A stretch of DNA of 64,000 bases from Sunxiuqinia elliptica (GTDB lineage: Bacteria > Bacteroidota > Bacteroidia > Bacteroidales > Prolixibacteraceae). The stretch spans positions 744,001-808,000 of the forward strand of contig NZ_FONW01000002.1 of the NCBI RefSeq assembly GCF_900113005.1, given 5' to 3'. The notes under the pieces are model-generated. The model was not told the origin of the DNA and did no database searches. It worked only from the letters and a program-made list of their open reading frames with translations. The translations under genes were made by a program, and so were the position numbers. This document shows positions 19,074 to 63,382 of the stretch, in pieces. How positions within the stretch are numbered: the stretch's first letter is position 1; every line of letters begins with the position of its first letter.

Positions 19074-19271
19074 CAGTATAATTGTTATGACATTTAAACT
19101 AGGGGCCGTCAAAGATAGAATATATGTTTTATGGGGAGATATGATCCGATTGGGGCTTGACGATAAAGTTCATGTTTTATTAAAATTACAAAGTTGCTTT
19201 ATTGGTTTTGGCTATGCAGCTAAAGCTTAACGTCGATTTATTTCGTAAGTTTGTATCTTGAAACAAACCCA

Positions 19272-19835: not shown

Positions 19836-19939
19836 AAAAAATGAAAATTTTAACTAGGGATCTTTCTCTTTCAATCGTACTCTAAATTGAAGGACAGAAT
19901 AAGCTGTGTCTTATTTTACAGAATTAAGCACTTTGAAAG

Positions 19940-20884: not shown

Positions 20885-20915
20885 TAACTAAAAACCACAA
20901 GCTTATGAAAAAAAA

Positions 20916-20939
20916 CGGAAGGTGCGCTAACACCTTCCG
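20916..20939 (+). other. Stem-loop between anti-sigma and susC genes
   Basis: CGGAAGGTG (20916-20924) and CACCTTCCG (20931-20939) form nine perfect pairs with a 6-nt loop in the gap between the FecR-type gene and the SusC-type gene. There is no T-tract, so it is probably an mRNA processing or stability element, or part of the susC leader, not a terminator. Confidence 0.65.
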
Positions 20940-21004
20940 CTAACTGGTCGATACCTGATCACTCGCTAAAACAATTCAAGTATTAACAACCAAAAAACAA
21001 ATTT

Positions 21005-24478: not shown

Positions 24479-24490
24479 TCTGAACGAACG

Positions 24491-48800: not shown

Positions 48801-49235
48801 CAACGTGAAGAAGCAACAACTATTGCCGAAAATTCAACTATTCGAGGTAAAGCTCTTTATGTCGAAGATGATTCATCAAATGTGGAGTTGGTTAGAGAAT
48901 TACTCGAAAATCAGAGACCCAATATTGAATTGGTGTCCTGTGGAAATGGTGCTGAAGCTCTTAATATAGCTTTAATGCATAAGCCAGATATTATCTTTAT
49001 GGTTAATCATTTGTCGGGCTTGTCGGGAGGTGAGCTGCTCAGGCAGTTTGGAGCAAATGAGAAGTTAGCAGGTGTTCCAGTGGTGGTAATCAGTGCTGAT
49101 GCCATGCCAAAACAGATTATAAAAATGTTGCAGCTTGGCGCAAAAGATTATCTAACAAAACCCTTGGATATTTCAGCATTTCTTCGTGTTTTGGATCGTT
49201 TTCTTGAAGCTGAAGAAGAAGGCAAAGGAAGCTAA
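42846..49235 (+). CDS. Giant multi-PAS hybrid sensor kinase with a degenerate receiver
   Basis: A 2129-residue soluble kinase without membrane segments. In order: coiled coil (1-50), a GAF-like segment (about 55-160), eight consecutive PAS/PAC units (about 170-1160), a coiled coil, a ninth PAS (about 1205-1320), a GAF domain (about 1325-1495), two more PAS units (about 1500-1735), HisKA with SHELRTPMNS (His1760), HATPase_c (about 1855-1980; DTGLGI, GTGLGLAV) and a receiver domain (about 2000-2125). The receiver keeps the acidic pair (YVEDD), the Ser switch (VISADA) and the Lys (TKPLD), but the phosphoacceptor position reads Val2053 (IIFMVNHLSG). Units three and eight are near-copies of each other (LSLAVxQSP), pointing to internal duplication. 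Confidence 0.92.
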   Translation: MNDKARMTEEKLQMKIQQLSEEQESLKEVLNEVLFKLEERKKEIECHNAISRLMQTPSLSIEEVIQEIVKVVPQSWQFPDFTHASIKLNGQVFNSSGNSKKTYVLTQPIVLEGRQLGEIKVSHNAVVVKNRTPFLVEEEVLLKAIAERISSFIKYERERELQEQNKQKYQILVENINDAIFETDENGVLTYVSPQIEQVTGYTPSELVGQLFYSKQEHLRGILEERFRVLQKKGGIKNDYEFLTKTGTTCWVRISSKAKYIDGQFCGALGTVSDISEKKKLELELTKSEWLYRSMMDASPDIVTIADIHGQIILTSPKTLEVFGHDSVDYFTGRNVWDFIKSESKEKCEATFKCLLVGDRINVVEFKAIKSDGTTFYIEVSANLIRNEEGKPHRIIIITRDITARKQAENQMLKLSLAVEQSPASIVITNIDGDIEYVNPKTCQTTGYAADELIGKNPRILKSGETSEDEYEYLWRSISHGETWQGIFHNKRKNGDFYWESAQITPIKNDAGELLGYFGVKEDVTDYKNIQEALLRSEERFKQVAEHSQTVVWEVDENGLYTYVGGAVKRVWGYLPEEIVGKKHFYDLHPEKGRKEFKRAAFKFFKDKKIITNLENQVVPKDGDPRWMLTNGIPILDKEGQFLGYRGSDLNINEKKQADKALKASETMLNNAQELAQMGSWEFNIINNEVNWSKNFYKLMEVTENDRTVSFDYFSDRIHPEDKDLLDEELETLIEQKKATSQQHRLLMPDGKVKWVENRIVPDFDSRGNLIALKGINLDITAKKMVEQELVKREEKLYEAQKLAQICSWEHSFKDHSTIWSDNTYDLYQIDRKLVQPSYEYILENRIHPDDVHFFVESVEQIHQDPQELSYDSRIVLPGGEIRWMTNEIVPVLENGELVGLSGINQDITDKKETELAITNQNNRMNAALRAIPDLIFIMRDDGTYLEYYANKEEELLLSPGNIVGSNIADAFPAEAARFHLDKFRECLRRKELINYNYSIPINGSELFFEARISPVDNHSVLVLARNITSEREQEVLLKRLSLAVKQSPVITVITDLKANVEYVNPVFERITGYSLAEIIGKNVRILQSGETPRAVYNEMWKTIKAGTSWHGEWKNRKKNGEKYWEDVIITPITDDDGQVMNYLAVKQDVTDRKKADLEIFNLNQNLEEKIKQRTKELEKSNRVLKEEIEKRKKTEHELTLSQQNYRNVVENVKEIIFKTDLEGNWLFLNQAWEEITGFTVDESIGERFMNYVYPDDRQRNWELFEPLIQQEKAHCKHEVRYLTKDGSYIWVEVFARLGLDEDNQIIGTYGTLQDITVRKRAENFEREVLDLSANFTGISFNEIDGALNVALERIGQFLTADRAYIFEIDNTQALMSNTYEWCNHGVLPEISNLKDIPVDIFPMWMKQLKSGNAIIIPSVANLPESWHAEKAILEPQGIQSLVVLPMYEEERLIGFVGLDLVKHQREFLEIEIKILNIWGTMLSNLVYRKQTEFLLEQTRQNHETFYNTVDDFLYILNDEWKIIDMNLSMCNRLGYLKEELQNRPIKSLLLEEQEQQVENIFDSLLEGQTDYCTIPMVTKGGNKIPVETKLKRGFWDGQSVVFGASKDISKLRLSEEKFSTAFHSNSGLMAISDIENGRYLDVNNAFLEAVEFSREELIGKKGTELGLFPDPGFEARILDKVEKEKSIRKYEVNWRTKSGVIRIGLLSADTIFIGDRKCMLSVTIDITERKRAEEEASKARIEAEEANRAKSEFLSRMSHELRTPMNSILGFGQLLEMGELKEPQKRGVKHIMQSGKHLLNLINEVLDISRIEAGRLELSIEPVSLENAIYEIIDLVQPQVERNSLNLRFVVSESSRMCVMVDRQRFKQIMLNLVNNAIKYNKSEGSATIETQRIGKGPKKMIRIFVRDTGLGISEEDIEKLFTPFERIGAEKTRTEGTGLGLAVVKKLTEAMAGRVGLTSKKGEGSTFWVEFPLGNNKGKCIKEQREEATTIAENSTIRGKALYVEDDSSNVELVRELLENQRPNIELVSCGNGAEALNIALMHKPDIIFMVNHLSGLSGGELLRQFGANEKLAGVPVVVISADAMPKQIIKMLQLGAKDYLTKPLDISAFLRVLDRFLEAEEEGKGS

Positions 49236-49264
49236 GTAATTTGAAAAACAAAGGAAAGAAACTC

Positions 49265-50455
49265 ATGACTGAAGAAGTGCTCAAAAAAGCGAAAATATTA
49301 ATCGTTGAGGATCAGCAGCCTAATATTGATGTATTAGAAGATTTGCTGAGAATGAAAGGATATCAGGATTTTAAAGCTACAGCAGATCCACGCGAAGTGT
49401 TTCGCTTATTTGCAACCTATGAACCTGACTTGATTCTTTTAGATTTAAGTATGCCTTATTTGTCGGGCTTCGAAGTGATGGAGCAATTACGAAGGATTAT
49501 TCCGGATGATACCTATTTCCCAATATTGATATTAACTGCTGACGCAACAAAGGAAACGAAAGAGAGAGCATTGTCCGAAGGAGCCAGTGATTTTCTAACG
49601 AAACCGTTCGATTTAACCGAAGTTGCTCTTCGTATTCAAAACTTGTTGTATACAAGTTTTTTGCATAAGCAATTGGTTGATCAGAACAAACTTCTGGAAA
49701 AGAAAGTACAGGAAAGAACGAAAGAACTGGAAGAACGGAATCGGGAGTTAATTAAAGCCAAGGAACGCGTAGAGGCGAGTGACCAGCTGAAAACTAATTT
49801 TATCAATAATATTTCTCATGAACTTCGGACGCCGCTGAATGGAATTCTGGGCTATGGGCAGATCCTGGTTGATTCTGACTTGACCTTGGAGGAGAAAACC
49901 TTTTATGCTCCAATGTTAAAGGAAAGCAGCTATCGGTTAATGAATACGATGACAAATATTATGGATATCTCCATGTTAACCTCCGGAAATCAGAAAGTCC
50001 GGAAACGAGAAGTCGATCTCAATCGATTGGTTCAAGATATCGTCGAAGATTTTCAGGCTAACTGTAGTGCCAAAAATGTGGAATTGAACACGACGTTTTT
50101 AACGGATGAATTGGGAATTCACACTGATCCGGAATTACTACGGAAAATTATTCGTCATGTGGTTGACAATGCCGTCAAGTTTACCTCGCAAGGAACGATT
50201 GATATCATTGTTGGTAAAGATGGAGAAAATCTGGTAATTGAAGTGAAAGATACAGGTGTTGGAATTGAGGAAAAATGGCAAAAACGAATTTTTGAGAATT
50301 TTATGCAGGAGTCAACTACAATTACCCGGATATTTGAAGGAACGGGGCTTGGACTCTCTATTTCAAAAGGGTTTGCCGAATTGTTAGGCGGGAAAATAAC
50401 GCTTAAGTCCGAAAAAGATAAAGGTTCAATTTTCACCGTTTTCATTCCTTTTTAA
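49265..50455 (+). CDS. Receiver-histidine kinase (REC-HisKA-HATPase)
   Basis: A 396-residue protein from the ATG at 49265, which follows GGAAAG by seven bases; a TTG at 49241 would add eight residues. The receiver comes first, with phosphoacceptor Asp60 (LILLDLSMP), Thr and Lys (LTADAT, TKPFD). A coiled coil, HisKA with His185 (SHELRTPLNG) and HATPase_c (VKDTGVGI, GTGLGLSI) follow. It begins 29 bp after the stop of the giant kinase, so the two are almost certainly co-transcribed. Its intact receiver could take the phosphate that the Val-bearing receiver next door cannot. No DNA-binding output is seen in either protein. Confidence 0.92.
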   Translation: MTEEVLKKAKILIVEDQQPNIDVLEDLLRMKGYQDFKATADPREVFRLFATYEPDLILLDLSMPYLSGFEVMEQLRRIIPDDTYFPILILTADATKETKERALSEGASDFLTKPFDLTEVALRIQNLLYTSFLHKQLVDQNKLLEKKVQERTKELEERNRELIKAKERVEASDQLKTNFINNISHELRTPLNGILGYGQILVDSDLTLEEKTFYAPMLKESSYRLMNTMTNIMDISMLTSGNQKVRKREVDLNRLVQDIVEDFQANCSAKNVELNTTFLTDELGIHTDPELLRKIIRHVVDNAVKFTSQGTIDIIVGKDGENLVIEVKDTGVGIEEKWQKRIFENFMQESTTITRIFEGTGLGLSISKGFAELLGGKITLKSEKDKGSIFTVFIPF

Positions 50456-50492
50456 GTCTAACGTCATCCTACTTTTTGCATCTGTTTTTGTA

Positions 50493-50535
50493 AGTTTTGG
50501 CATTTTGTTTGGAGGGAATTGCCAAACTGTTTTTT
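50493..50535 (+). terminator. Terminator after the kinase pair
   Basis: AGTTTTGGCA (50493-50502) and TGCCAAACT (50520-50528) pair with one bulged T; a T-run follows after one G. It lies about 40 bp past the stop of the receiver-kinase gene. Confidence 0.65.
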
Positions 50536-50734
50536 GTAATTGTTGCTGGATATTTTTTAGCTATTTTTTAACAATAATTAATTGATTCTATTCTTTTTTC
50601 TCCTTTTGCTGGCTATTTTATAGGATAGAAAATAGGTTGCTTTGTCGCATGTGAACCCGTACAGATAAATCTATCGCATGAGGTGAACTAAACGACCGTT
50701 TTTTGATTTTAGTTATAAATAGCAAGATTATAAA

Positions 50735-52216
50735 ATGACTCTTACAACAGAAAATATCTTATTGGTTGGTTCCATTCTTTTATTCCTTTCGCTAATTGCT
50801 GGAAAAACTTCCTACCGTTTTGGAGTGCCTGTACTGCTTCTTTTTATTTCAATTGGTATGCTGGCTGGCTCGGACGGGATTGGAGGAATTTATTTCGATA
50901 ATCCGAAAACAGCTCAATTCATAGGAATTGTAGCGCTTAACTTCATTTTGTTTTCCGGGGGACTTGATACCGATTGGCGATCCGTCAAACCAGTCTTAGG
51001 TCAGGGAATTACGCTCTCCACCTTGGGGGTGATGCTTACTGCTGGTTTTTTGGGGGTATTTGTTTGGGCTGTTACCGATTTCTCGATTTATGAAGGTCTG
51101 CTACTTGGCTCCATCGTTTCATCAACCGATTCGGCAGCTGTGTTTTCCATACTCCGGTCTAAAAACTTAGCCTTAAAAGGAAACCTACGACCAACTTTGG
51201 AATTGGAAAGTGGTAGTAACGATCCCATGGCCTATATTTTAACCATAGTTTTTACAGGCATTGTGGTTAATCAGCAGGCTAATTTGCTCTCCATTTTCCC
51301 GATGCTTTTGCAGCAACTTTTGATAGGTGGTATTTTGGGTTTGGTAATCGGTAAGTTGGGAAGTATTGTGATTAACCGGATAGAGCTGGTTTACGAGGGC
51401 TTGTACATCGTTTTAGTTATTGCAATCATGTTTTTTAGTTTTTCGGCGACCAATTTTATTGGAGGGAACGGCTTTCTGGCTGTATACATCTCAGCTGTAT
51501 TTCTTGGAAATCAGGAATTAATACATAAAAAGTCAATTCTAAAATCGTTTGACAGCTTTGCTTGGCTGATGCAGATTATTCTGTTCCTTACGCTCGGATT
51601 ACTGGTTTTTCCAAAACAAATAATCCCTTTTGCAGGAATTGGTTTGGTAATCTCCATGGTCTTAATTTTTGTAGCTCGGCCACTTAGTGTTTTTATTAGT
51701 TTGATTCCATTCAAGATCCAAAAGCGAAGTCGTTGGTTTATCTCCTGGGTTGGGCTTAGAGGAGCCGTTCCAATTGTGTTGGCTACCTATCCACTGATTT
51801 ATGGAGCCGAAAAAGCGCATGCTATTTTCAATATCGTTTTCTTTATTTCCATTACTTCGGTTTTAATTCAGGGAACAACTCTTTCGGTTGTTGCCAAATG
51901 GTTGGGGCTAACTTTGCCCGAAAACTTAAAGCCGAGAACGCAAACCGATTTGGAACTAAACGATAGCATCAAATCCAAGTTGAAAGAGGTGGTAATCCCA
52001 GCAACAAGCTCGGTTGTTGGAAAGCAAATTGTCCAAATCGGGCTTCCCAAAACGTCCTTAATAGCAATTATCAAAAGGGAGGATAGCTACATTACACCGC
52101 ATGGAGCAACCGTGTTGAATGCCAATGACAAGTTATACCTATTGGCCGAAGACAACGATTCGGAAAAAGAGGTACTAACTAGTCTTGATATTCCTCTTCA
52201 TAAGTCTGAAAATTAG
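50735..52216 (+). CDS. K+/H+ (CPA1) antiporter with RCK_C domain, NhaP2-like
   Basis: A 493-residue membrane antiporter. About twelve hydrophobic helices fill residues 5-390, with the CPA1 core SGGLDTDW, SIVSSTDSAAVFSILR and ELESGSNDPMAY; the Asp-rich SSTDSAA and GSNDPMA segments carry the ion-binding acidic residues. A TrkA_C (RCK_C) regulatory domain of about 80 residues ends the protein (VVGKQIVQIGLPKTSLIAIIKRED). NhaP2-type proteins exchange K+ or Na+ for protons. Its promoter must lie in 50536-50734, where I see no clear box. It seems unrelated to its neighbours. Confidence 0.92.
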   Translation: MTLTTENILLVGSILLFLSLIAGKTSYRFGVPVLLLFISIGMLAGSDGIGGIYFDNPKTAQFIGIVALNFILFSGGLDTDWRSVKPVLGQGITLSTLGVMLTAGFLGVFVWAVTDFSIYEGLLLGSIVSSTDSAAVFSILRSKNLALKGNLRPTLELESGSNDPMAYILTIVFTGIVVNQQANLLSIFPMLLQQLLIGGILGLVIGKLGSIVINRIELVYEGLYIVLVIAIMFFSFSATNFIGGNGFLAVYISAVFLGNQELIHKKSILKSFDSFAWLMQIILFLTLGLLVFPKQIIPFAGIGLVISMVLIFVARPLSVFISLIPFKIQKRSRWFISWVGLRGAVPIVLATYPLIYGAEKAHAIFNIVFFISITSVLIQGTTLSVVAKWLGLTLPENLKPRTQTDLELNDSIKSKLKEVVIPATSSVVGKQIVQIGLPKTSLIAIIKREDSYITPHGATVLNANDKLYLLAEDNDSEKEVLTSLDIPLHKSEN

Positions 52217-52251
52217 TTGCTATAGCTAGAATAGAGAAAGAAATTAATTGT

Positions 52252-52391
52252 ATTTTCACTTGGCAAAAACAGTGTTTTACAACATTAAACGGATGCATTT
52301 TTCGGTATAATTTTTAACTTTCTTTGTTGAGATGAATAAGAGAAATGGCTTTGTGCCATTTTTTAAACTAAAAAAGCCAAACCGATTTGGC
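52252..52391 (+). repeat. 140-bp direct repeat, copy A (before the sigma gene)
   Basis: Matches 59212-59351 base for base without gaps, with seven mismatches in 140 positions. It contains a hairpin ATGGC/GCCAT followed by T (52346-52365), an ATG-led reading frame (from 52332), and ends in the palindrome GCCAAA-CCGA-TTTGGC. The distance between copies is 6960 bp, which brackets sigma, anti-sigma, susC and susD. Confidence 0.93.
52376..52391. promoter_or_regulatory. Predicted LacI-family operator 1
   Basis: GCCAAA-CCGA-TTTGGC has six-base perfect arms and a central CG, as in LacI-family operators. It lies just before or over the start of the ECF sigma gene. The same motif precedes lacI itself and a close variant precedes the mannosidase. 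Confidence 0.65.
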
Positions 52392-52416
52392 TATCCAACG
52401 AGTAAGAAAACCGAAC

Positions 52417-53052
52417 TTGAAAAGTGGTCAGGAATATGTTTGGGCTTTAAAGTTTGGCGACGAAAAGGCTTTGAAGCTGATAATGGAAAGATGGTATTCC
52501 AAATTGTACAATTTTGCCATCGGGTACCTGAAAAATGAAGGAGGAGTGGAAGAAGTAATTCAAGATGTCTTTCTTCAGCTTTGGGATAACCGCGAAAAGC
52601 TGGCTGATACAACTTCATTAAATGCTTACCTGTTTACCTTAACACGAAACCGCTGCATTGATGCTATTCGAAGAGAACGACTTTTAATTCAATTTCATAC
52701 GGATAAAAAGGCCGAGTACAATTACCTGACGAATAGCTACTATGCCTTATCTGACTCAATTCTTGATCATATCTTTGAACGGGAGTTTCAAGAGGAGATC
52801 GATAAAACCATTCGAGCTTTACCCACACAGTGTCAAAAGGTCTTTTATTTGAGTCGGGAAAAAGGATTGAAAAACCGGGAAATTGGAGAGAAGCTAAATA
52901 TTTCACCAAAAACAGTGGAAACACATATAACCAAAGCATTAAAAACGATTAAAAATACACTGGAACGAAAGTTTCCTGATTCTTTTAATTTGATTTTGAT
53001 CTTGGTGAGAAAAGTTAGGCTGAATACCCGGAAAATCTTGTCAGGCATTTGA
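52417..53052 (+). CDS. ECF sigma factor (PUL type) without an ATG start
   Basis: A sigma factor of about 211 residues. Region 2 (NFAIGYLKNEGGVEEVIQDVFLQLWDN) and region 4 (LPTQCQKVFYLSREKGLKNREIGEKLNIS) are intact. No ATG lies in frame before region 2. The candidates are TTG at 52417, chosen here, and TTG at 52387, which lies inside the LacI-type operator. The only upstream ATG (52332) opens a different frame. The FecR-type anti-sigma gene follows after 131 bp. Control by both LacI and the SusC-FecR signal is implied. Confidence 0.85.
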   Translation: MKSGQEYVWALKFGDEKALKLIMERWYSKLYNFAIGYLKNEGGVEEVIQDVFLQLWDNREKLADTTSLNAYLFTLTRNRCIDAIRRERLLIQFHTDKKAEYNYLTNSYYALSDSILDHIFEREFQEEIDKTIRALPTQCQKVFYLSREKGLKNREIGEKLNISPKTVETHITKALKTIKNTLERKFPDSFNLILILVRKVRLNTRKILSGI

Positions 53053-53183
53053 TTCTCATACTTCTTTAAATACGAAATTCTCGACAAAGAAATGTTGGAA
53101 AAATAGACTTTGGAAAAAAAAATCAAAAATTGACTCAGGGTATTTTTGTGAATTTACGTTTTACCAATAGATACCTGAGAAAA

Positions 53184-54167
53184 ATGACCGACGATTTATT
53201 ATTCAAATACATTACCGAACAAGCAACTGAGGATGAACTTCGGGAAGTTCATGAGTGGATCGCTCAGGCTGAAAGCAATCAGCAACAGCTTGCCCGGATT
53301 CGCAATAGTTGGGTGTTGGCAGGTTTAGATCAAGAGATCGATCTGAAAAAGAAAGAACGCGGGATTAATCGTGTTCTTCAGCAAGTCCGGTGGTTGAATA
53401 AGCAAAAACGAGCCAGAGCTCTTCGTCGCCAATGGTTGCAGTATGCCGCAGTTGCGATACTTCTGGTTGGGCTTTCAGCCTTCTTGGGTTACTTCCTTTC
53501 TACTTCTACATTCGATGCAAACATGGGATATACCGAGGTGCTTGCTCCTCGGGGCGAACGCTCTCAAATCATTTTACCTGATGGTTCTTTGGTTAAACTG
53601 AACGCGGAATCGAAGCTCCGATTCAAAACTGCTTTTCAGTCAAAAAGGCGATCGGTGGAGCTGGAAGGAGAAGCTTTTTTTCAGGTTTCACACGATGCTT
53701 CAAAACCGTTTGTTGTAAAAACAGCTCAGCTTGAGGTTCAAGTGTTGGGAACAAGCTTTGACATTAGCTGCTATCCGGATGATAAGCACATTACCACTTA
53801 TCTGGAAACCGGAAAAGTTAAAGTTAATATGCCCAATGGAGAAGAGTTGATTCTAAAGCCAGATCAGGCGATTAGCTACAATAAAGAATCAGGCGAAATT
53901 CAGAAAATGAATTTGAAGTCAGACTATCTACTGGACTGGACTAAAGGCTTGCTGACAGTCAGAAATGAAACCATTGAAGCTTTGTCTCGAAAATTGGAAC
54001 GGCGATATAACATCCAGATCCTTTTTGGAGATAATGAAGTGAAGCACCACCATTATACGGGATCGATAAACGATGAAGATTTGGATATTGTGCTTGAAGC
54101 ATTGGAATTTACCTCATCATTAAACTATAAACGAAAAGGCAATGTGGTAACCTTATACTCAAAGTAA
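53184..54167 (+). CDS. FecR-family anti-sigma factor (locus 2)
   Basis: A 327-residue inner-membrane protein from the ATG at 53184; an 18-codon extension to 53130 is open but unlikely. A cytoplasmic sigma-binding part with an acidic start (MTDDLLFKYITEQATEDEL), one membrane helix (about 85-108; LQYAAVAILLVGLSAFLGYFL), a FecR domain (about 122-225; APRGERSQIILPDGSLVKLNA) and a DUF4974-like C-terminus are present. It pairs with the sigma factor upstream and the STN-bearing SusC downstream. Confidence 0.92.
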   Translation: MTDDLLFKYITEQATEDELREVHEWIAQAESNQQQLARIRNSWVLAGLDQEIDLKKKERGINRVLQQVRWLNKQKRARALRRQWLQYAAVAILLVGLSAFLGYFLSTSTFDANMGYTEVLAPRGERSQIILPDGSLVKLNAESKLRFKTAFQSKRRSVELEGEAFFQVSHDASKPFVVKTAQLEVQVLGTSFDISCYPDDKHITTYLETGKVKVNMPNGEELILKPDQAISYNKESGEIQKMNLKSDYLLDWTKGLLTVRNETIEALSRKLERRYNIQILFGDNEVKHHHYTGSINDEDLDIVLEALEFTSSLNYKRKGNVVTLYSK

Positions 54168-54169
54168 AA

Positions 54170-54247
54170 CCGGAAAACATTCGCAGTGTTTCCCGGTCTA
54201 AATAAGATTTAATAAACGTGCCAAAAGATTCGCAGTCGTAATGGCAC
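54170..54247 (+). other. Two stem-loops sharing the loop sequence ATTCGCAGT, before susC of locus 2
   Basis: Hairpin one: CCGGAAAACA (54170-54179) with TGTTTCCCGG (54187-54196), one mismatch. Hairpin two: GTGCCA (54218-54223) with TGGCAC (54242-54247). Both hold ATTCGCAGT (54179-54187 and 54228-54236). Neither has a T-tract. They occupy the anti-sigma/susC gap, where locus 1 also has a stem-loop. Confidence 0.6.
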
Positions 54248-54261
54248 TATTTACTAACTAA

Positions 54262-57200
54262 ATGGATTACAAATTTATGAAAAAAAAACACAATGAGGGC
54301 AATCGTGAGCTTGCGCGATGGCTTAGAAAGGGATTTTTAATTATGCGAATATTCCTCGTTTTTATGTTGCTGGGAGTGTTACAAAGTAATGCTTCAGTGT
54401 ATTCTCAGACGAAACGCTTCAGTTTAAATGAAGCTAATATTTCCATTCGGGAAATTCTGACTCAGATTGAACAAGAAAGCGATTATCGTTTTTTTTATGA
54501 GGAAAAGGATTTGCGATTGGATGATCGGGCAAATGTTGATTTTAGCAACAGTACGATCGATGAAGTGTTGAATAAGTTGTTTCGCCAAAAAAACATTGAG
54601 TACAAAATTATGGCGAATAACTTTATTGTTTTAAAGTCACCTGGAACTATAGGCAATCAGGAGATAGCTTCACAACAACTTGCTATTTCAGGAAGAGTTG
54701 TTGATGCCAATGGGGAGCCTCTTCCCGGCGTCACTGTTGTTCTAAAAGGAACAACACAGGGAACAATAACTGAAGCCAGTGGTAACTTCTATCTTCAGGC
54801 TGTTCCGAACGACGCTATTTTGGTTTTTTCTTTTGTGGGGATGAAAACGCTTGAAATTCAAGTCGCAGGGAAATCAAAGATTGATGTCCAAATGGAAGAA
54901 GATGCCATTGGGCTGGATGAAGTGGTTGCGATTGGTTATGGGATCCAAAAAAAATCAGATATCACCGGATCTTTGGTATCCATTTCAGAGGAGGAGTTGA
55001 AAAGTATTCCTGTTGTCGACCCCGCCTTGGCTATCCAAGGACGTGCTGCGGGTGTTCAGGTGATGAATAATTCGCATCAACCGGGAGGAAATGTTTCCAT
55101 AAAAATTCGGGGAACAAACTCGATCAACGCAAACAACGAGCCTTTGTATGTGGTGGATGGTTTTCCATTATCCGGCGGGTTAAAATACATCAATCCCAAC
55201 GATATTATATCAATGGAGATTTTGAAAGATGCGTCAGCAACCGCTATCTATGGTTCTCGGGGAGCTAATGGTGTCGTGTTAATTAGTACTAAAAAGGGGG
55301 AAGCGGGTAAGATGCAGGTTTCCTTTAACAGCTCTTCGAAGATTTCATACTTGTCGAAGAAAATTGAAATGCTGGATGCCCATGAGTTTCGAATGATGAT
55401 GAATGAAGCTTATGAAAACCAAAACATGTTGGACGGAGGAAACAGAGCTTTGCCTTACACGGCAGATGAGGTTGCTAATCCCCAAAATAATATTGATTGG
55501 CAGGAAGAGGCAACTCGGGCAGCATTTAGCCATAACCACAATTTAGATGTAAGTGGAGGAACAGAGAACCTGCTCTATTCCGCTTCTATCGGCTATCGGG
55601 ATGAAGAAGGAATTGTAAAAACATCGGATTGGCAACAAATTAGCACAAGGTTGAGTTTGGAATCTCAGCTAAGTAGCTGGGTTAAGTTCGGCATAAACCT
55701 GAATTATAATGCAATTGACAATGGGTTGGTAGAAACAGACCATGGTGGTAACTCTGTCCCTCGCGCAATGTTGGAAACCTTCCCGGACATTCCTGTTTAT
55801 GACGAAAATAGTGATTGGACAATTGGAACGAATGAAGGTTACGCGAGTCCTACAGCATTAATTTATGGAATTCATAATACCAAAGAAACTGATAAATTTC
55901 TTGGAAATCTGTTTTTCACGCTTGATTTGGGTAAGGGCTTTACCTTTAAAACAACCTATGGCCGTGAAATAGAAACAGCGAAGCAAAGTAAGTTTACCGA
56001 TAAAAAGTTGATCAGCCAGGCCCATACGAGTAGTTCGGCCTATGTTTCAAGCTACAAAATTGAAAGTTGGCAAAATGAAAACTACTTGACCTATCAAAAA
56101 ACAATTGACGATCATAGTTTCGATGCTTTAATCGGGGTTACTTGGTCGAAATATACCTATGAATATTTTGATGTTACAGTTCGAGACTTTCCAACCGATG
56201 CCTTTTTAACTAATCAGTTGCAGGCAGGAGAGGATCTCGCGGCAACAAGTTCGGGTAAAGAAGAATCAAAGCTGAATTCTTATTTTGGACGCTTAAATTA
56301 CAGCTTTAAAAATAAGTATCTGGTAACTGGAACTCTTCGGTCCGATGGTTCTTCCAAGTTTGGCGAGAATAATAAATATGCGATGTTTCCGTCGCTGGCC
56401 TTAGGTTGGAGACTTTCTGAAGAGGATTTCATCCAAGAGTCTGACATTTTTTCAAATCTTAAATTACGTTTAGGATATGGGATTACGGGTAACCAGGAGA
56501 TCGGAAGCTATCGTTCTCTTGAACGCTTGGGAACCATCAATGGCGTGTTGGGAAATCGCCGAGCTACTGGAATTGCTAATGTTCAGATCGCAAATGCAGA
56601 CTTGAAGTGGGAGAGAACCGAGCAGTACAACGTTGGGTTGGATTTTGGGTTCTTTAAGAATCGCCTCGATTTTGTCGTTGATTTTTATAAGAAAAATACC
56701 AATGACTTGCTCCTGCAAGCACCTATTCCTGCCACAACAGGTTTTTCAACCATGCTAAAAAACATTGGAAGTGTAATGAATAAAGGGGTTGAATTTACCA
56801 TGAACTCGGTCAATATTGATAAGAAATTTAAATGGTACACCAATCTGAATGTCTCTTTCAATAAGAATGAAGTTATTGAGTTGGCCAACAACGGACAGGA
56901 TATTTTCCCGATTTGGTTTGTTAATCCGGTAACCATCATTCGCGAAGGAGAATCATTGGGCTCATTCTGGGGATTAACCCGGGAAGGGATCTATCAGAAC
57001 GAAGAAGAAATTCAAGCGCATTTGAAAAATCCGGGAACAACAGTTCCTGGTGATATCAAGTATAAAGATTTAAATAACGACCAAGTTATTGATTCCAAGG
57101 ATCGAAGTATTTTAGGTGATAATAATCCTGATTTTATTTATGGCTTAACCAATGACTTTGTCTATGGACCTTGGAGTTTGACGGTTCAGGTAAGTGGTGT

Positions 57201-57618
57201 GCAAGGAATGCAGGTGGCTAATTTGAATCCAATTGTATTGGAAGATCGGCAAACTTTAACCAACAGCTATAAGTCGCTTTTAGACAGGTGGCATGGTGAA
57301 GGAACCGGGAATAATGAGGTGGCCATGGTACGCATAAGCAGCCAGCTTAATATATCCGATCGGCATATTGAAGATGGCTCATACCTCCGATTTAAGAACA
57401 TCGCCTTAGGCTACAATCTTCCTAAAAGTATTACGCAGAAGCTTCGAATTTCCGATGCAAAACTAACTGTTAGTTTAATCGATTGGTTTACAATTACAAA
57501 CTATGAAGGATATGATCCTGAGGTGAGTACAATGGGAGGTCATGCAAGTCAAGGGATTGAGTTTAGTAGTTATCCAAATTCCAAGTCATTTCTTGTTGGC
57601 TTAAACATTAATTTTTAA
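54262..57618 (+). CDS. SusC/RagA-family TonB-linked outer-membrane protein (locus 2)
   Basis: An 1118-residue glycan importer. The signal region (to about residue 49) is followed by an STN domain (about 52-105; LNEANISIREILTQIEQ), a CarboxypepD_reg-like domain (about 143-222; GEPLPGVTVVLKGTT), the signature VVAIGYGIQKKSDITG, a plug and the barrel ending in NINF. An ATG five codons later is an equal start choice. It works with the SusD-like protein 11 bp downstream and signals to the FecR-type protein upstream through its STN domain. Confidence 0.96.
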   Translation: MDYKFMKKKHNEGNRELARWLRKGFLIMRIFLVFMLLGVLQSNASVYSQTKRFSLNEANISIREILTQIEQESDYRFFYEEKDLRLDDRANVDFSNSTIDEVLNKLFRQKNIEYKIMANNFIVLKSPGTIGNQEIASQQLAISGRVVDANGEPLPGVTVVLKGTTQGTITEASGNFYLQAVPNDAILVFSFVGMKTLEIQVAGKSKIDVQMEEDAIGLDEVVAIGYGIQKKSDITGSLVSISEEELKSIPVVDPALAIQGRAAGVQVMNNSHQPGGNVSIKIRGTNSINANNEPLYVVDGFPLSGGLKYINPNDIISMEILKDASATAIYGSRGANGVVLISTKKGEAGKMQVSFNSSSKISYLSKKIEMLDAHEFRMMMNEAYENQNMLDGGNRALPYTADEVANPQNNIDWQEEATRAAFSHNHNLDVSGGTENLLYSASIGYRDEEGIVKTSDWQQISTRLSLESQLSSWVKFGINLNYNAIDNGLVETDHGGNSVPRAMLETFPDIPVYDENSDWTIGTNEGYASPTALIYGIHNTKETDKFLGNLFFTLDLGKGFTFKTTYGREIETAKQSKFTDKKLISQAHTSSSAYVSSYKIESWQNENYLTYQKTIDDHSFDALIGVTWSKYTYEYFDVTVRDFPTDAFLTNQLQAGEDLAATSSGKEESKLNSYFGRLNYSFKNKYLVTGTLRSDGSSKFGENNKYAMFPSLALGWRLSEEDFIQESDIFSNLKLRLGYGITGNQEIGSYRSLERLGTINGVLGNRRATGIANVQIANADLKWERTEQYNVGLDFGFFKNRLDFVVDFYKKNTNDLLLQAPIPATTGFSTMLKNIGSVMNKGVEFTMNSVNIDKKFKWYTNLNVSFNKNEVIELANNGQDIFPIWFVNPVTIIREGESLGSFWGLTREGIYQNEEEIQAHLKNPGTTVPGDIKYKDLNNDQVIDSKDRSILGDNNPDFIYGLTNDFVYGPWSLTVQVSGVQGMQVANLNPIVLEDRQTLTNSYKSLLDRWHGEGTGNNEVAMVRISSQLNISDRHIEDGSYLRFKNIALGYNLPKSITQKLRISDAKLTVSLIDWFTITNYEGYDPEVSTMGGHASQGIEFSSYPNSKSFLVGLNINF

Positions 57619-57629
57619 ATCGAGCAATC

Positions 57630-59102
57630 ATGAAAAAGTACAAGATATCCCTACTGTTTTTAAGCCTGTTGTTTTTTAGCTCATGCAGTGAATGGTTGGA
57701 AGAAGAGCCTTTAACGTTTTTAAGTTCATCAAATTTTTATCAAAACGATGAAGAAGCAACAGCGGCGGTGTATGCCCTTTATCAACCATTAAGTGATTTG
57801 TACGCTCAGCCTGCGTATGCAGAGTTGATATGGGCCTTGTGGGAACTTCCCGGAGATCAAACGTATTCAAATTCTGGGGTTGGAGTTGTCGCTCAGGATC
57901 AACTTGACCGCTATGAGTTTGATACTGAAATAAAGAACTTTGAGCATTGGTGGAAGTTTTCTTATGTGATTATTAACCGGAGTAACACGGTTATTGAAAA
58001 CATTCAGGAGAATGAAAATATTTCTGAAGGCGTGAAGAAAACAGCGCTTGGCGAAGCTCATTTTATGAGAGGACTCGCTTATTTCGAGTTAGCAGTAGGT
58101 TGGGGAGGTGTTCCCAAAATTTTGGAAGGAGCCGAAGAGCTCTATCCTTCTCGAAGCTCTGCCGTCGATATTTATAATCAGGCGCTTGCCGACCTGACGA
58201 TTGCTGAGGAGAATCTTCCCGTGTCATGGGAGGAGACAGAATATGGACGGGCCACGAAATATGCCGCAAAGGCTTATCTGGCAAAAATCTATTTAACCAT
58301 GGCTGGCTACCCATTACAAGATGCGTCAAAGTTGTCTTTAGCAGCAAGTAAAGCCAAAGAGGTTATCGATAATGGCCCCTATGAGTTGGCCGCCAATGTT
58401 CTTGACAACTGGAATCCGGAGCAGATGGCTCAGGAACAGATATTTGTTGTGAACAGAAAGAGAGGCTTGAATTGGCCCGCATTTGCTTCATATTGGGCTC
58501 CTCGTATGCATGTTGAGTTGGCTCCAGAACCGGGGGCTACTTATTTCGGTGCATTCTATCCTAATTTGGAGTTTTATAACTGGTATCCTGATGAAGATCC
58601 GCGGAAGGGCTTGTTCTTTATGGATGAGGTAACTTCATACAGTGATCCGTCGCTAACGGTGGAACTTCCTTTTCCACATGTGGCAAAATATTACACGCCA
58701 ATCTATTCTGATGGCTCAGATCAGGATATCGTCAGGCTTCGATTTGCTGAAGTTTTATTGATTTTTGCGGAGGCTGAGAATGAACAGAACGGACCAACCC
58801 CTGAAGCATTTCAGGCACTAAACAGAGTTCGGGAAAGAGCTTTTGGTGATGACTCGGGTGATTTAGCCGGGCTCTCAAAGGATGAATTCCGGGAGGCTGT
58901 AAGAAAGGAACGTTCATTAGAACTATGTTTCGAAGGTACGAGCTGGCCAGATATGCTCCGAACGCGAAAATCGAGAAATGGGTCAATATTCGATTATAAG
59001 AATATTGGAAATATAAGCCCTTCTGAAACTAATTTGCTGTTTCCAATTCCGGCAACAGAGATGCTTGCAAACAGTAACTTGGAACAGAATCCTGGATACT
59101 AA
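57630..59102 (+). CDS. SusD/RagB-family lipoprotein (locus 2)
   Basis: A 490-residue surface lipoprotein (Cys19 in FFSSC). It shows the SusD features GEAHFMRGLAYFELAVGWGGVPKI (about 136-159), RFAEVLLIFAEAENEQ, and the ending LLFPIPATEMLANSNLEQNPGY, which is the standard SusD C-terminus. It is shorter than the locus 1 SusD (584). A terminator follows. Confidence 0.96.
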   Translation: MKKYKISLLFLSLLFFSSCSEWLEEEPLTFLSSSNFYQNDEEATAAVYALYQPLSDLYAQPAYAELIWALWELPGDQTYSNSGVGVVAQDQLDRYEFDTEIKNFEHWWKFSYVIINRSNTVIENIQENENISEGVKKTALGEAHFMRGLAYFELAVGWGGVPKILEGAEELYPSRSSAVDIYNQALADLTIAEENLPVSWEETEYGRATKYAAKAYLAKIYLTMAGYPLQDASKLSLAASKAKEVIDNGPYELAANVLDNWNPEQMAQEQIFVVNRKRGLNWPAFASYWAPRMHVELAPEPGATYFGAFYPNLEFYNWYPDEDPRKGLFFMDEVTSYSDPSLTVELPFPHVAKYYTPIYSDGSDQDIVRLRFAEVLLIFAEAENEQNGPTPEAFQALNRVRERAFGDDSGDLAGLSKDEFREAVRKERSLELCFEGTSWPDMLRTRKSRNGSIFDYKNIGNISPSETNLLFPIPATEMLANSNLEQNPGY

Positions 59103-59133
59103 ATCAAAGCGGCATAAGTTTTTAGATACGAGT

Positions 59134-59182
59134 GAGGTCGCAAGAATAGCTTTTGAGGATACCGGCGGCCTCATTCCCTTTT
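59134..59182 (+). terminator. Probable terminator after susD of locus 2
   Basis: GAGGTCGC (59134-59141) and GCGGCCTC (59165-59172) pair with one G-T pair over a 23-nt loop and are followed by CCCTTTTTTG. The long loop lowers confidence. Confidence 0.55.
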
Positions 59183-59211
59183 TTGTGTAACAACGGGCTG
59201 AGGAGAGGATC

Positions 59212-59351
59212 ATTTTCACATGGAGAAAACAGTGTTTTACAACATTAAACGGATGCATTTTTCAGTATAAATTTTAACTTTCTTTGTTGAGATGAATAAG
59301 AGAAATGGCTTCGTGCCATTTTTAAAACTAAAAAAGCCAAACCGATTTGGC
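59212..59351 (+). repeat. 140-bp direct repeat, copy B (before the lacI gene)
   Basis: Second copy of the element at 52252-52391, with seven substitutions and no gap. It keeps the ATGGC/GCCAT hairpin with T-run, the ATG-led frame and the terminal palindrome. Outside the 140 bp the two flanks are unrelated. Confidence 0.93.
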
Positions 59352-59366
59352 AAATCTGTAAAATGA
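59292..59366 (+). CDS. Possible 24-residue leader peptide overlapping lacI
   Basis: The frame begins MNKRNGFVPFLKLKKPNRFG and ends in TGA at 59364-59366, which overlaps the lacI ATG (ATGA). The first 20 codons are also present in copy A, with one silent and one Phe/Leu change. The overlap suggests translational coupling. It could equally be a by-product of a conserved hairpin and operator, so it is offered with low confidence. Confidence 0.3.
   Translation: MNKRNGFVPFLKLKKPNRFGKSVK
59336..59351. promoter_or_regulatory. Predicted LacI-family operator 2
   Basis: GCCAAA-CCGA-TTTGGC, identical to operator 1, lies 11 bp before the lacI start codon and predicts autoregulation, probably by blocking transcription elongation or initiation close by. 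Confidence 0.68.
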
Positions 59367-60376
59367 GAAAGATTTCAATACAAGATATAGCTGAAGAATT
59401 AAAATTGTCCAAGGCAACTGTTTCACTCGTGTTGAATGGGCGGGGAGATGAAAAAAGGATTCGTAAGGAAACTCAGGAGAAGATAAAGAACTATGCAAAG
59501 TTGCACAATTACCGTCCAAATCAGTTTGCCCGGGGACTTAGCCGGGGGAAAAGTGAAATGGTTGGTTTGATTATTCCGAATATCTCGGACAACTTTTACG
59601 CCCGTATTGCAAGCCGGATAGAGCAAAAGGCCAGGTTATCGGGGTACACGGTTGTTTACAGTAGCTCAGGAGAAAATCCGGATCGGGAAAAAGAGCTTAT
59701 TCAAACGATGTTGGATCGGCAAATCGATGGATTGATCATCGCTTCAACTCAGAAAAATCAAGAAGAGATTAAACGATTGAAGAAGATGAATTTTCCTTTT
59801 GTATTGATTGATAGGCATTATCCTGAGATTGAGACCAATTTTGTTATTGTGGACAATGCTGGCGGAGTTGTTAGCGCTGTCGATCAGCTCGTCAAACAGG
59901 GAAGAACGCGAATTGGCTATGTTTCTTTACAATCAGATTTGGAAGCTATCCATCAGCGAACAGAGGGATATTTACAAGCAATGAAAAAACATGGACTTCC
60001 TGTGGAGTCATCATTTGTTCAGGAAGTTAGTCCGGAGTCCTATGAAGTGGAAATGAACCAGGCAATTGCTCATTTGGTTGAGGCAGAGCCGAAAGTTGAT
60101 GGGATTGTGTTTGCAACACACTATTTAACTGCAGCAGGACTGCGTAGTCTAAAAAAGAGAGGCTTGTCGGTACCTGCTGATGTTGCAGTTGTGAGCTACG
60201 ATCAGATGAATGCGTTCGACTTAATTGAACCACCTATGACCTGTGTCATTCAGCCTGTTGATGAAATTGGAGATCGAGCTGTTAATATCTTGTTGGATAC
60301 GATGAGAAAAAATGAAACAACGAAACAGCTTGTTCTTAAAACTGATTTTGTCGTTCGGAAATCCTGTGGCGGATAG
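59363..60376 (+). CDS. LacI-family transcriptional regulator
   Basis: A 337-residue regulator. The N-terminal helix-turn-helix (ISIQDIAEELKLSKATVSLVL, residues 4-24) and hinge (NYRPNQFARGLSRGKS) are classical. Residues about 62-330 form a periplasmic-binding-protein-like effector domain (VGLIIPNISDNFYARIASRIE; DGLIIAST; DRAVNILLD). The effector should be a sugar released in this locus. Three matching palindromes around the gene predict its regulon: the sigma gene, lacI itself, and the GH38-MFS transcript. Confidence 0.95.
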   Translation: MRKISIQDIAEELKLSKATVSLVLNGRGDEKRIRKETQEKIKNYAKLHNYRPNQFARGLSRGKSEMVGLIIPNISDNFYARIASRIEQKARLSGYTVVYSSSGENPDREKELIQTMLDRQIDGLIIASTQKNQEEIKRLKKMNFPFVLIDRHYPEIETNFVIVDNAGGVVSAVDQLVKQGRTRIGYVSLQSDLEAIHQRTEGYLQAMKKHGLPVESSFVQEVSPESYEVEMNQAIAHLVEAEPKVDGIVFATHYLTAAGLRSLKKRGLSVPADVAVVSYDQMNAFDLIEPPMTCVIQPVDEIGDRAVNILLDTMRKNETTKQLVLKTDFVVRKSCGG

Positions 60377-60391
60377 TATTTTTTTGACTAA

Positions 60392-60411
60392 TTGCTAAAT
60401 CGGTTTAGCAA
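60392..60411. promoter_or_regulatory. Predicted LacI-family operator 3, before the GH38 gene
   Basis: TTGCTAAA-TCGG-TTTAGCAA has eight-base perfect arms. Its core AAATCGGTTT is the reverse complement of the core in operators 1 and 2, giving a shared consensus GCYAAA-TCGG-TTTRGC. It lies 106 bp before the mannosidase start. Confidence 0.7.
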
Positions 60412-60517
60412 TGGAGGTGAAGAAAGAAAAACGTCAAGATCTGAGGTTGGAGAACGTGGGAGAATGAGGTAAGACGTATTGTATGGTTCTGATATTTTGA
60501 TTCAAAACGTATAAAAA

Positions 60518-63382
60518 ATGAAAACAATCTTTTTAAAGACATTTATGGTGTTGCTGGTTGCTGTTAATGCCAGTCCATTAATTGCCCAAAATAAGACTGT
60601 GGTATTTAACTATCATAAACCTTATCAAACCAAGTATGTAGATGGTGTTCTGCTGGCTAAAGCCAGCGTTGAATCAGCATCAGTCAAAGGATATGACCAG
60701 TTGATTTTTGATCGTGGTTATCGTACTGGTTTCACACAGCAGCATGATACAACCTGGCTTTGGTTGCCGGTAATTGGGCAGCCGGAAAAAATCCAGTTCA
60801 CATCTGCATCGCAGAAAATGAGTCATCAACAACTATTTACTCCCTTAGTTTCCGATGATTGGGGGTATTTCAAAAATGGACGGATTCATGTTATTTGTTC
60901 TTCCCACCAGGATATTGCCTGGATGAATACGCCAGACTCGTGCCGGCATGAGCGCGTTCATGATATTGTGCTTCCTGCTCTTGACTTGATTGATGAACAT
61001 CCCGAGTTTAAATTTGAGATGGAGCAGAGCCTTAATTTGATGGAAGCGATTGAAGATGCGCCCAATGAACGGCAACGAATTATCAAGTCTTATCAATCGG
61101 GTAATTTTGAGTGGGGTGCAACCTTTACGCAACCTTACGAGGGACTGGAGTCCGACGAGCAGTTGGTCAGACAAACTTACCTCGGGCGCAAGTGGATCAA
61201 GGACAATTTGCCGGGGATGGATGCTAAAGTAGCTTACAACATTGATGTTCCTGGCCGATCGCTTCAGGTACCACAAATACTAAGCAAAGCAGGCATTGAT
61301 TATTTATTCGTTTCCAGAATGAAAGAGGGTTTTTACAACTGGCACAGTCCGGATGGATCAAAAATTTTGACCTACAGCCCGGGAAATTATGGATGGTCTT
61401 TGCTTATTTATAAATATTTGGAAGAAGATGCGATTACTGCACTTCAGAAGTTAAATCAGGTATTAAAGAACTGGAACGACTATTATCAGGAGCATCATTT
61501 GCCACCTCATTATGCTCTGGTTATTAGTACTGATGCCGGTGGTCCCAAGTATTATGAGGAGGTCATTCGAGAATGGAACGAGATTGCCAGCAAGTCAAAA
61601 GCGGGTATTCCACAAATACAACATTCAACGGCCGATGAGTTTCTGAATGAGATCAACACACCCGAAGCTCGTTTTGATTCGATCTCTGGAGAACGCCCAA
61701 ACCTTTGGGTGTATATTCATGGTGCAGCACATTACGAGGCTATTAAAGCAAAGAAACAAGCTGCGGTAAATGTGCCAGCTGCAGAAACGTTTAGCACAAT
61801 TAATAGTTTATTAGAGAATAGCTTTGAGGAATATCCTCAGAAAGAATTGTTTGAAGCCTGGTATAAATCAATTTATCCGGATCACGGATGGGGAGGTAAA
61901 AACGGAGCAATTACCGACAGCATTTTTCAGGCTTCGTTGGAGCAAGGCAATGAAATAGGTCAAAAGATTCTTCGGATGGCATTGGAAAATATATCGGACA
62001 AAGTGAGCTTGCCCAATAAGTATAACGTAATTGTTTACAATGATTTGTCGTGGCCCCGGAATGGGACTGCCAAAGTGGATATTTCCGGATTAAAAGGAGA
62101 TAATTGGGTTTTGGTAGCTCCTGATGGAGAAAGAGTACCTGCTCAAATTGTAGAAAATCAGGAACTGGTATTTCAGGTTAAAAATGTTCCATCGATTGGC
62201 TATAAAACTTATCAGTTAAAAAAGGAGAGTCAAAAAGCTGGAAATTTTGAAGTTGCATCCAACTATTGTGAAAATAATTTCTACAAAATCACTTTTGGAA
62301 ATGGCGGAATAACAAGCTTGTATGACAAGCAATTGGAGAAGGAAATGATCAATTCAACTCGTTTTGCTGCGGGTGACTTGCTTTACATGGGCTACGACGG
62401 ACATGGTGCTGGCGAATTTGTCCAGGTGACTGAACCAAACCTGACAGATTTTGAAGAGCTTCATCAGAAAAATGCGCAGTGGGAGCAGGTTGTAAATGGT
62501 GATATTTTCTCCGTTTTTCAAGCTTCCTACCAAATGGCAGATTTCAAAGTTATTCAAAAGATAACCGTCTATCATCAGAAAAAACAGATTGATTTTGAGT
62601 ACGACATTCCCGATTGGAATGGAAGACATAATCGGCAGATTCGGGCTGCTTTCCCGCTGAATATGAAAGAAGATGCGCAAGTTTCTTATGATGTTCCTAT
62701 GGGGATGATTCATGTTGGGAAGGATGAAATGACTCAGCGTCCGAAAGGATGGGCTTGGGGAGGAACTTATTGGCAGAAGCCGGCAGAAATACGTCCGAGG
62801 GAGATTCAAAACTTTATGACCGCAAGCGATTCGCAAGCTGGGGTTACCATATCAACCAATGTTGTGACTGCCGATTGGGTTGATCCGACGCGGGAAAAAG
62901 CGGACTATACCATCTTGAATTTCGTGCTGCTATCAACGCATAAAAGTTGCCATGGGCTGGGGAACTGGTATCATCAAACAGGAGCGCATGAGTTTAAGTT
63001 TTCACTCAGCTCGCATGAACCAGGTTGGAAAAACGGCTATCATTTTGGGGTTGAAGAAAATCACCCTTTTCATGTTGTGCAGCGGGAGGGCAAGCAGCAA
63101 GGAGCACTCCCAATTGAAAAAGGCTTTGTGACAACTTCTGATGCCTTGACGAAAATTACAGCACTAAAAAAAGCTGAAAATGACGATAACGTTGTGCTTC
63201 GAATCCTTGAAGTGGAGCGGCAAAATAAGGAGGTTTCAGTGACTACCAATTGGAATGCTGAAGCCGTTTATCAGACCAACTTAATTGAAGAAGCACCAAA
63301 CTTGGTACCTCACACAGCCAATGAATTTAAAGTTAAGTTGGAAGGAAGTGCGATTGAAACTTACAAGCTGGAACTAAAATAA
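60518..63382 (+). CDS. GH38 alpha-mannosidase, secreted
   Basis: A 954-residue enzyme with a signal peptide (about 1-23, ending LIAQ). The GH38 catalytic domain begins at HVICSSHQDIAWM, where His130 and Asp132 are zinc ligands, and the nucleophile is Asp243 in YNIDVPGRS. GH38 C-terminal beta domains follow from about 510 to the end. The usual FGHS after the nucleophile reads VPGRS, a common variant in Bacteroidetes. It releases alpha-mannose and lies directly before a sugar porter gene, so mannose or a mannoside is the likely product taken up. A lipobox is absent; periplasmic location is likely. Confidence 0.88.
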   Translation: MKTIFLKTFMVLLVAVNASPLIAQNKTVVFNYHKPYQTKYVDGVLLAKASVESASVKGYDQLIFDRGYRTGFTQQHDTTWLWLPVIGQPEKIQFTSASQKMSHQQLFTPLVSDDWGYFKNGRIHVICSSHQDIAWMNTPDSCRHERVHDIVLPALDLIDEHPEFKFEMEQSLNLMEAIEDAPNERQRIIKSYQSGNFEWGATFTQPYEGLESDEQLVRQTYLGRKWIKDNLPGMDAKVAYNIDVPGRSLQVPQILSKAGIDYLFVSRMKEGFYNWHSPDGSKILTYSPGNYGWSLLIYKYLEEDAITALQKLNQVLKNWNDYYQEHHLPPHYALVISTDAGGPKYYEEVIREWNEIASKSKAGIPQIQHSTADEFLNEINTPEARFDSISGERPNLWVYIHGAAHYEAIKAKKQAAVNVPAAETFSTINSLLENSFEEYPQKELFEAWYKSIYPDHGWGGKNGAITDSIFQASLEQGNEIGQKILRMALENISDKVSLPNKYNVIVYNDLSWPRNGTAKVDISGLKGDNWVLVAPDGERVPAQIVENQELVFQVKNVPSIGYKTYQLKKESQKAGNFEVASNYCENNFYKITFGNGGITSLYDKQLEKEMINSTRFAAGDLLYMGYDGHGAGEFVQVTEPNLTDFEELHQKNAQWEQVVNGDIFSVFQASYQMADFKVIQKITVYHQKKQIDFEYDIPDWNGRHNRQIRAAFPLNMKEDAQVSYDVPMGMIHVGKDEMTQRPKGWAWGGTYWQKPAEIRPREIQNFMTASDSQAGVTISTNVVTADWVDPTREKADYTILNFVLLSTHKSCHGLGNWYHQTGAHEFKFSLSSHEPGWKNGYHFGVEENHPFHVVQREGKQQGALPIEKGFVTTSDALTKITALKKAENDDNVVLRILEVERQNKEVSVTTNWNAEAVYQTNLIEEAPNLVPHTANEFKVKLEGSAIETYKLELK

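Follow-up and report, generated by a model that had tools for sequence, protein, structure and literature searches.

In a 64,000-nucleotide stretch of Sunxiuqinia elliptica DNA (contig NZ_FONW01000002.1, positions 744,001 to 808,000 of the forward strand; hereafter the window, whose own numbering is used throughout), a 140-bp element occurs twice, once 5' of an extracytoplasmic function (ECF) sigma factor gene and once 5' of a lacI-family regulator gene, while a sister genome carries a single, mosaic copy and lacks the genes in between. Our best explanation is that the element is the control region of lacI, that a second copy of it stands 5' of the sigma/fecR/susC/susD operon and would place that operon under the same LacI switch, and that recombination has taken place at the repeats; we put the probability of this explanation as a whole at about 0.68.

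The duplicated element

The two copies, located by repeat search on the + strand at 52252-52391 and 59212-59351, start 6960 bp apart and agree at 133 of 140 positions (95%) in an ungapped alignment. The seven mismatches lie at element positions 9, 13, 14, 53, 60, 101 and 113, and the longest identical stretches measure 38, 40 and 27 nt. The 40-nt flanks agree at 10/40 positions on the left and 12/40 on the right, which is the level of unrelated DNA; the similarity between the copies themselves is far beyond chance. An initial annotation, made from the letters of the window, had described two 140-bp copies with seven mismatches and unrelated flanks that bracket a sigma/anti-sigma/susC/susD block, and all of this holds, the intervening genes now being identified by profile matches.

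The same annotation had pointed out that an element scattered over many unrelated places would have to be seen as a mobile repeat. At E<=0.001 the 5.09-Mb genome holds matches at these two places only; at E<=1 there are seven, the five extra ones being short and weak. A full-length match was found in one of 60 other genomes searched, at one place, and no plasmid record matches the element. The many copies at unrelated places that mark a miniature inverted-repeat transposable element (MITE) or an insertion sequence are thus missing, and we reject the view that the element is a MITE-like copy with an accidental link to the operator described below as barely credible; the right end of the element also coincides with that operator. 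Short repeats of this type do exist in the genus: in the congener G002, a MITE-like repeat (L090:16960-17084) bordered by the inverted ends TAGTGTCGT...ACGACACTA has 40 listed matches. Neither the window genome nor the sister contains a match to that repeat.

The predicted LacI operator

A 16-bp palindrome, GCCAAACCGATTTGGC, forms the exact right end of both copies (52376-52391 and 59336-59351, + strand); the second of these predicted operators lies 11 bp 5' of the lacI ATG. A third, diverged site, GCTAAATCGGTTTAGC, was found by repeat search at 60394-60409 (+ strand) between lacI and a GH38 gene, 17 bp past the former and 108 bp before the ATG of the latter, and stands there without the 140-bp element. 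Sites of the joint motif GCYAAANCGNTTTRGC occur three times in the own genome and twice in the sister, without exception at this locus; the reversed control pattern is absent from both genomes. The protein encoded by lacI (59363-60376, + strand) carries both domains expected of the family, with 40.4 bits for the helix-turn-helix domain PF00356 (cut-off 27) and 101.3 bits for the periplasmic-binding-like domain PF13377; it reaches no NCBIfam equivalog cut-off.

Five genomes with a best LacI of 57% identity or more were compared (G000, G001, G097, G002 and G036). Their motif sites number 15, of which 13 lie inside lacI/mannosidase clusters and two within unrelated reading frames (G002:C346 and G097:C13). 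G097 has sites on both sides of lacI, one 14 bp before it and one just past it; G002 has an exact site past lacI and a degenerate one 13 bp before it, and on its contig C67 a lacI remnant is enclosed by two motif sites. The motif also stands 22-75 bp past a LacI paralogue in G016, G084 and G102, and is present in 18 of 140 genomes across the family. Because the motif is confined to this locus and borders lacI orthologues in related genomes (G002, G097), the palindrome is very probably the operator of the adjacent LacI protein itself, placed before the regulator and its target genes and rare elsewhere. If so, the sigma/FecR/SusC/SusD operon, lacI and the mannosidase operon would stand under one repressor. 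This agrees with the initial annotation, which had seen a LacI-type palindrome in each copy and proposed that two units were placed under one control; its unit was incomplete, as the third operator would bring the GH38 operon under the same control. The likely native home of the operator would be lacI, since the operator belongs to the control regions of lacI orthologues, whereas the closest sigma relative found (G002:C84, 65% identical) is without it.

At 51926-51953, inside the antiporter gene on the left of the locus, the sequence CGCAAACCGATTTGG resembles most of one operator, and the sister reads CACAAACCGATTTGGA there; this likeness within a coding region is probably due to chance.

A single mosaic element in the sister genome

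The sister genome (L032/L071) is a draft of about 70 contigs from an uncultured Sunxiuqinia. Its LacI is 99% identical to that of the window, and the stretch that includes lacI differs at 18 of 1025 positions (1.8%). There, a single element separates the antiporter gene from lacI, and the block between the repeats (52392-59211) was not found elsewhere in the genome, the best match among the best 40 of 89 candidates being 257 bp of a SusC gene at 70%. At the sites that distinguish the two copies, the single element is copy-1-like at positions 9, 13 and 53 and copy-2-like at 60, 101 and 113; at site 14 it is copy-1-like in the alignment, though ambiguously so, owing to a 1-bp insertion at that point. 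The sister element is thus a mosaic with its switch between element positions 53 and 60, which is what a crossover between those positions would leave. The two copies are long enough for homologous recombination, and the initial annotation had suggested that they could recombine and delete the 7-kb block; the sister has exactly the structure that such an event would produce, and provides the junction that the annotation had proposed to look for.

Compared with the mosaic path through the two copies, the sister shows no substitution at the shared positions, apart from the single 1-bp insertion. We make no claim of purifying selection on the element, as 0/140 has a chance of 0.014 at 3% divergence and of about 0.08 at 1.8%.

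A 140-bp repeat is near the length that short-read assemblers confuse, and the sister is a draft; its single copy might then be a collapsed repeat. In that case, however, the 6.8-kb block should turn up on a different contig; the best 40 of 89 candidates included nothing better than the 257-bp match, and the junction lies inside a contig of 571 kb, so that we consider a collapse very unlikely.

The first 81 codons of the antiporter gene are missing in the sister (L032:8311-8580, corresponding to window 50735-50976), and it is here that synteny with the window breaks off; in a search run without a positive control, window positions 47000-50976 had no sister match at E<=1e-20.

Loss or gain of the block

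The mosaic pattern alone is silent on direction, because integration by a single crossover yields an identical mosaic. We favour loss of the block by recombination in the sister over its gain in the window lineage, since the congener G002 keeps a sigma-fecR-susC-susD block in the corresponding place: on L090 these four genes are followed by an operator, a lacI remnant, a second operator, a GH76 gene and two GH38 genes, which is the order of the window.

The opposite course, in which a sister-like ancestor with the order antiporter, element, lacI received the block as an element-bearing circle that integrated by a single crossover and left two reciprocal mosaic copies, is in our judgement about half as probable. 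Several observations would fit it. The SusD of the block is its own sole match at E<=1e-80 in 140 genomes of the family (best 11 candidates per genome) and at E<=1e-70 in 395 genomes of the class (best three candidates per genome), and the SusC of the block shares 39-42% identity with the relatives found elsewhere. The presence of the operator at lacI orthologues and its absence from the closest sigma relative would likewise be expected if the block were the newcomer. Against this, the donor would already have to carry a 95% identical element, and G002 has its block in the same position. A plasmid donor was considered and rejected, because the element has no plasmid match and the SusD proteins on plasmids are 30-37% identical (6 records). 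Foreign base composition was rejected as well, the GC profile of the block being indistinct from its surroundings.

Two further candidates were set aside. Orthology of the window block with the mannosidase block of G002 is rejected as unproven, the proteins being 31-38% identical. The G002 contigs C295 (with lacI) and C67 (with the sigma block) share an exact 55-bp end overlap, but this overlap is a repeat with 40 listed matches, and the adjacency was not used.

The lacI remnant of G002 (L090:9594-9815, on contig C67) consists of a gene start that is 45% identical over residues 1-56, followed by a short end-like piece; it lies between two intact operators and upstream of the GH76/GH38 genes, and a better-preserved lacI is found on contig C295. 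In G097, genes for a tyrosine integrase and a MobA/VirD2 relaxase (L067:3551-10125) stand directly upstream of the lacI-susCD-GH38 cluster, and this version of the cluster may lie on or beside a mobilizable element.

Hairpin, short reading frame and promoter

Each copy also contains a hairpin, AAATGGC-N5-GCCATTT (52343-52361 and 59303-59321, + strand), whose 33-nt pieces fold with -11.8 and -10.6 kcal/mol (z -4.57 and -3.85). Overlapping it is an ATG-led frame, a candidate leader: in copy 1 it runs from 52332 to 52538 (+ strand; MNKRNGFVPFFKLKKPNRFG..., 68 aa) and overlaps the beginning of the sigma gene out of frame, and in copy 2 from 59292 to 59366 (+ strand; MNKRNGFVPFLKLKKPNRFGKSVK, 24 aa), where its TGA overlaps the lacI ATG (ATGA). 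The short frames noted earlier in the two copies are thus real features of the sequence. The T-run hairpin described with them is present in both copies, but most of the T-run is consumed by the stem, and a terminator scan lists the hairpin on the - strand only and not on the + strand. An intrinsic terminator or attenuator would be expected to have a GC-rich stem and, behind it on the transcribed strand, an unpaired T-run; this is not what is seen here, and the hairpin is a weak terminator candidate.

One could nonetheless argue that leader peptide and hairpin, and not the operator, are the conserved functional part of the element and control read-through into sigma and lacI. The z-scores of the hairpin would speak for this, as would the retention of the frame in both copies and in the sister, with inter-copy changes that amount to one synonymous and one Phe/Leu exchange, and the overlap of its stop with the lacI start in copy 2. 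However, G097 and G002 keep the operator but show no visible counterpart of either frame or hairpin 5' of lacI; the T-run is buried in the stem; Rfam gives no match at the gathering threshold in 50000-62000; and the sequences are too few for a covariation test. We regard control by attenuation as quite unlikely.

Of the promoter-leader-operator cassette that had been proposed for each copy, the predicted operator is supported, but a clear promoter of the Bacteroidetes type was not found by a simple scan of both copies, the best candidate common to them matching 8 of 10 consensus letters. Judged by the same consensus, there is a 9/10 match in copy 1 alone, and in G097 a 10/10 match abuts the operator. 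Promoters of the sigma-70 type were uninformative, with 22 found and 19.1 expected in shuffled sequence.

Genes of the locus

All genes named here are on the + strand. The left neighbour of the element, in the window and in the sister, is a potassium/proton antiporter gene (50735-52216). The ECF sigma factor gene (52417-53052) belongs to a reading frame that is open from a TTG at 52387; the start at TTG 52417 was chosen by eye, with the G002 homologue (L064) as a guide, and is probable. It is followed by genes recognized by profile matches: a FecR-type anti-sigma gene (53130-54167), a susC-type TonB-dependent transporter gene with an STN domain (54262-57618) and a susD-type gene (57630-59102). 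TIGR02985 (156.1 bits, cut-off 126.4) and PF04773 (68.7 bits) identify the Bacteroidetes-type ECF sigma factor and the FecR anti-sigma factor of an ECF sigma/FecR/SusC unit, in which SusC reaches 926.4 bits with TIGR04056 (cut-off 368.25) and has the STN domain PF07660 (40.6 bits). No recombinase gene lies between the two repeats.

Past lacI, a GH38 alpha-mannosidase-type gene (60518-63382) opens a run of mannoside genes that continues downstream. Beyond the window end (L094), this run comprises genes for a major facilitator superfamily (MFS) sugar transporter, a second GH38, a protein resembling N-acetylglucosamine 2-epimerase, a GH76-like protein, an RraA-like protein, a short-chain dehydrogenase/reductase, a lactonase and a UxuA-type mannonate dehydratase. 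The SusC/SusD pair thus adjoins glycoside hydrolases (GH38, the second GH38 and the GH76-like protein), as in a polysaccharide utilization locus; the gene contents are those of a mannoside-type utilization locus, and the set from the MFS transporter to the UxuA-type enzyme fits a mannoside regulon.

Elsewhere in the window, a second run of open reading frames at 19251-26245 encodes relatives of the block's sigma, FecR, SusC and SusD proteins at 26-39% identity; the LacI motif is missing from it. A single frame of 2129 aa, by eye resembling a many-PAS hybrid histidine kinase, and a second kinase/receiver protein occupy 42846-49235.

Proposed mechanism

We infer from LacI-family biology that LacI would bind GCYAAANCGNTTTRGC and thereby repress its own gene, the sigma-SusCD operon behind copy 1 and the GH38 operon behind the third operator. 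A mannose-derived sugar might release LacI, so that import, hydrolysis and catabolism would be switched on together, and the ECF sigma/FecR pair would add a second, transporter-sensed step. The operator closes the element on its downstream side, past the hairpin and within the candidate leader frame, a position that would fit a roadblock better than promoter occlusion. The arrangement in G097 contrasts with this, as the 10/10 promoter match adjoins the operator there. A crossover within element positions 53-60 would then have left one mosaic copy and no sigma-SusCD block in the sister.

Several observations weigh against this explanation. In copy 1, the scan did not identify a promoter. At least two sites per genome occur in 7 of 140 family genomes for the reversed control and in 6 of 140 for the motif; it is thus the location of sites, and not their number, that counts as evidence. 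In G036, whose LacI orthologue is 57% identical, the cluster contains sites but the stretch immediately 5' of lacI does not, and G023 and G018 (LacI 46-47% identical) are without any motif site. When up to three mismatches are allowed, a 19-bp pattern matches five times in the own genome and its control three times; two of the five matches lie well away from the locus. Six unambiguous sites underlie the mosaic, and independent change at these sites would give this arrangement by chance in 1 of 20 cases, or in 1 of 35 when the ambiguous seventh site is counted. Finally, the block proteins of G002 are 31-38% identical to those of the window, compared with 57% for GH38, so that the argument from their shared position may reflect convergence.

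The duplicated promoter-operator might also be a docking site for the exchange of modules, at which sigma/SusCD cassettes are dropped and perhaps re-acquired as circles, and where whatever module occupies the site would stay under the local LacI. We consider this rather improbable; if true, it would explain why the same LacI-mannosidase core is found with different SusCD modules or with none (window, sister, G002, G097 and G036).

Known systems and significance

LacI-family sugar regulons have been predicted in Bacteroides by comparative genomics, among them those of KdgR, UxaR, UxmR and UxuR (PMC3878776). Like other LacI/GalR local repressors with CG-centred palindromic operators, the LacI described here has a helix-turn-helix and a sugar-binding domain and predicted operators beside or upstream of its own gene and its targets; it differs in that the operator-bearing control region is duplicated, near-verbatim, before an ECF sigma/anti-sigma operon. 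The mechanism by which sigma, anti-sigma and SusC act together is described in PMC3878776 as well. The block resembles the ECF sigma/FecR/SusC-SusD trans-envelope units of Bacteroidetes polysaccharide utilization loci in gene content, gene order and the STN domain on SusC, but has a predicted LacI operator about 25 bp before the probable sigma start, where the sigma relative on G002:C84 has none.

Excision between direct repeats has a precedent in the wzy locus of Salmonella Typhimurium, for which PMC12074656 reports 113-bp direct repeats, a circular form and reversion in co-culture. Both cases have a non-mobile block between direct repeats of similar length and relatives with a single repeat and no block; in Salmonella, perfect repeats enclose a block of 2.6 kb, whereas here the repeats are 95% identical (133/140), span 6.96 kb and each contain an operator.

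LacI regulons, ECF/FecR/SusC units and direct-repeat excision are thus each known, and it is their combination at this locus that differs: a near-verbatim duplicated operator region would co-regulate an ECF sigma-SusCD cassette and also marks the boundaries of its presence or absence between sister species. SusC/SusD variation in Bacteroides arises by DNA inversion, with dedicated recombinases and inverted repeats. There, too, rearrangement alters which glycan-uptake proteins are made; here it would be a deletion between direct repeats, with no recombinase gene between them. A comparable case was not found in the open-licence literature, which is weak evidence of absence, several queries having been swamped by unrelated words.

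We suggest that the locus is a natural example of how a glycan-uptake module may be added to or removed from a regulon by a single recombination event, with the regulation of its neighbours undisturbed. It also predicts a two-tier circuit, in which a LacI repressor would stand over an ECF sigma factor.

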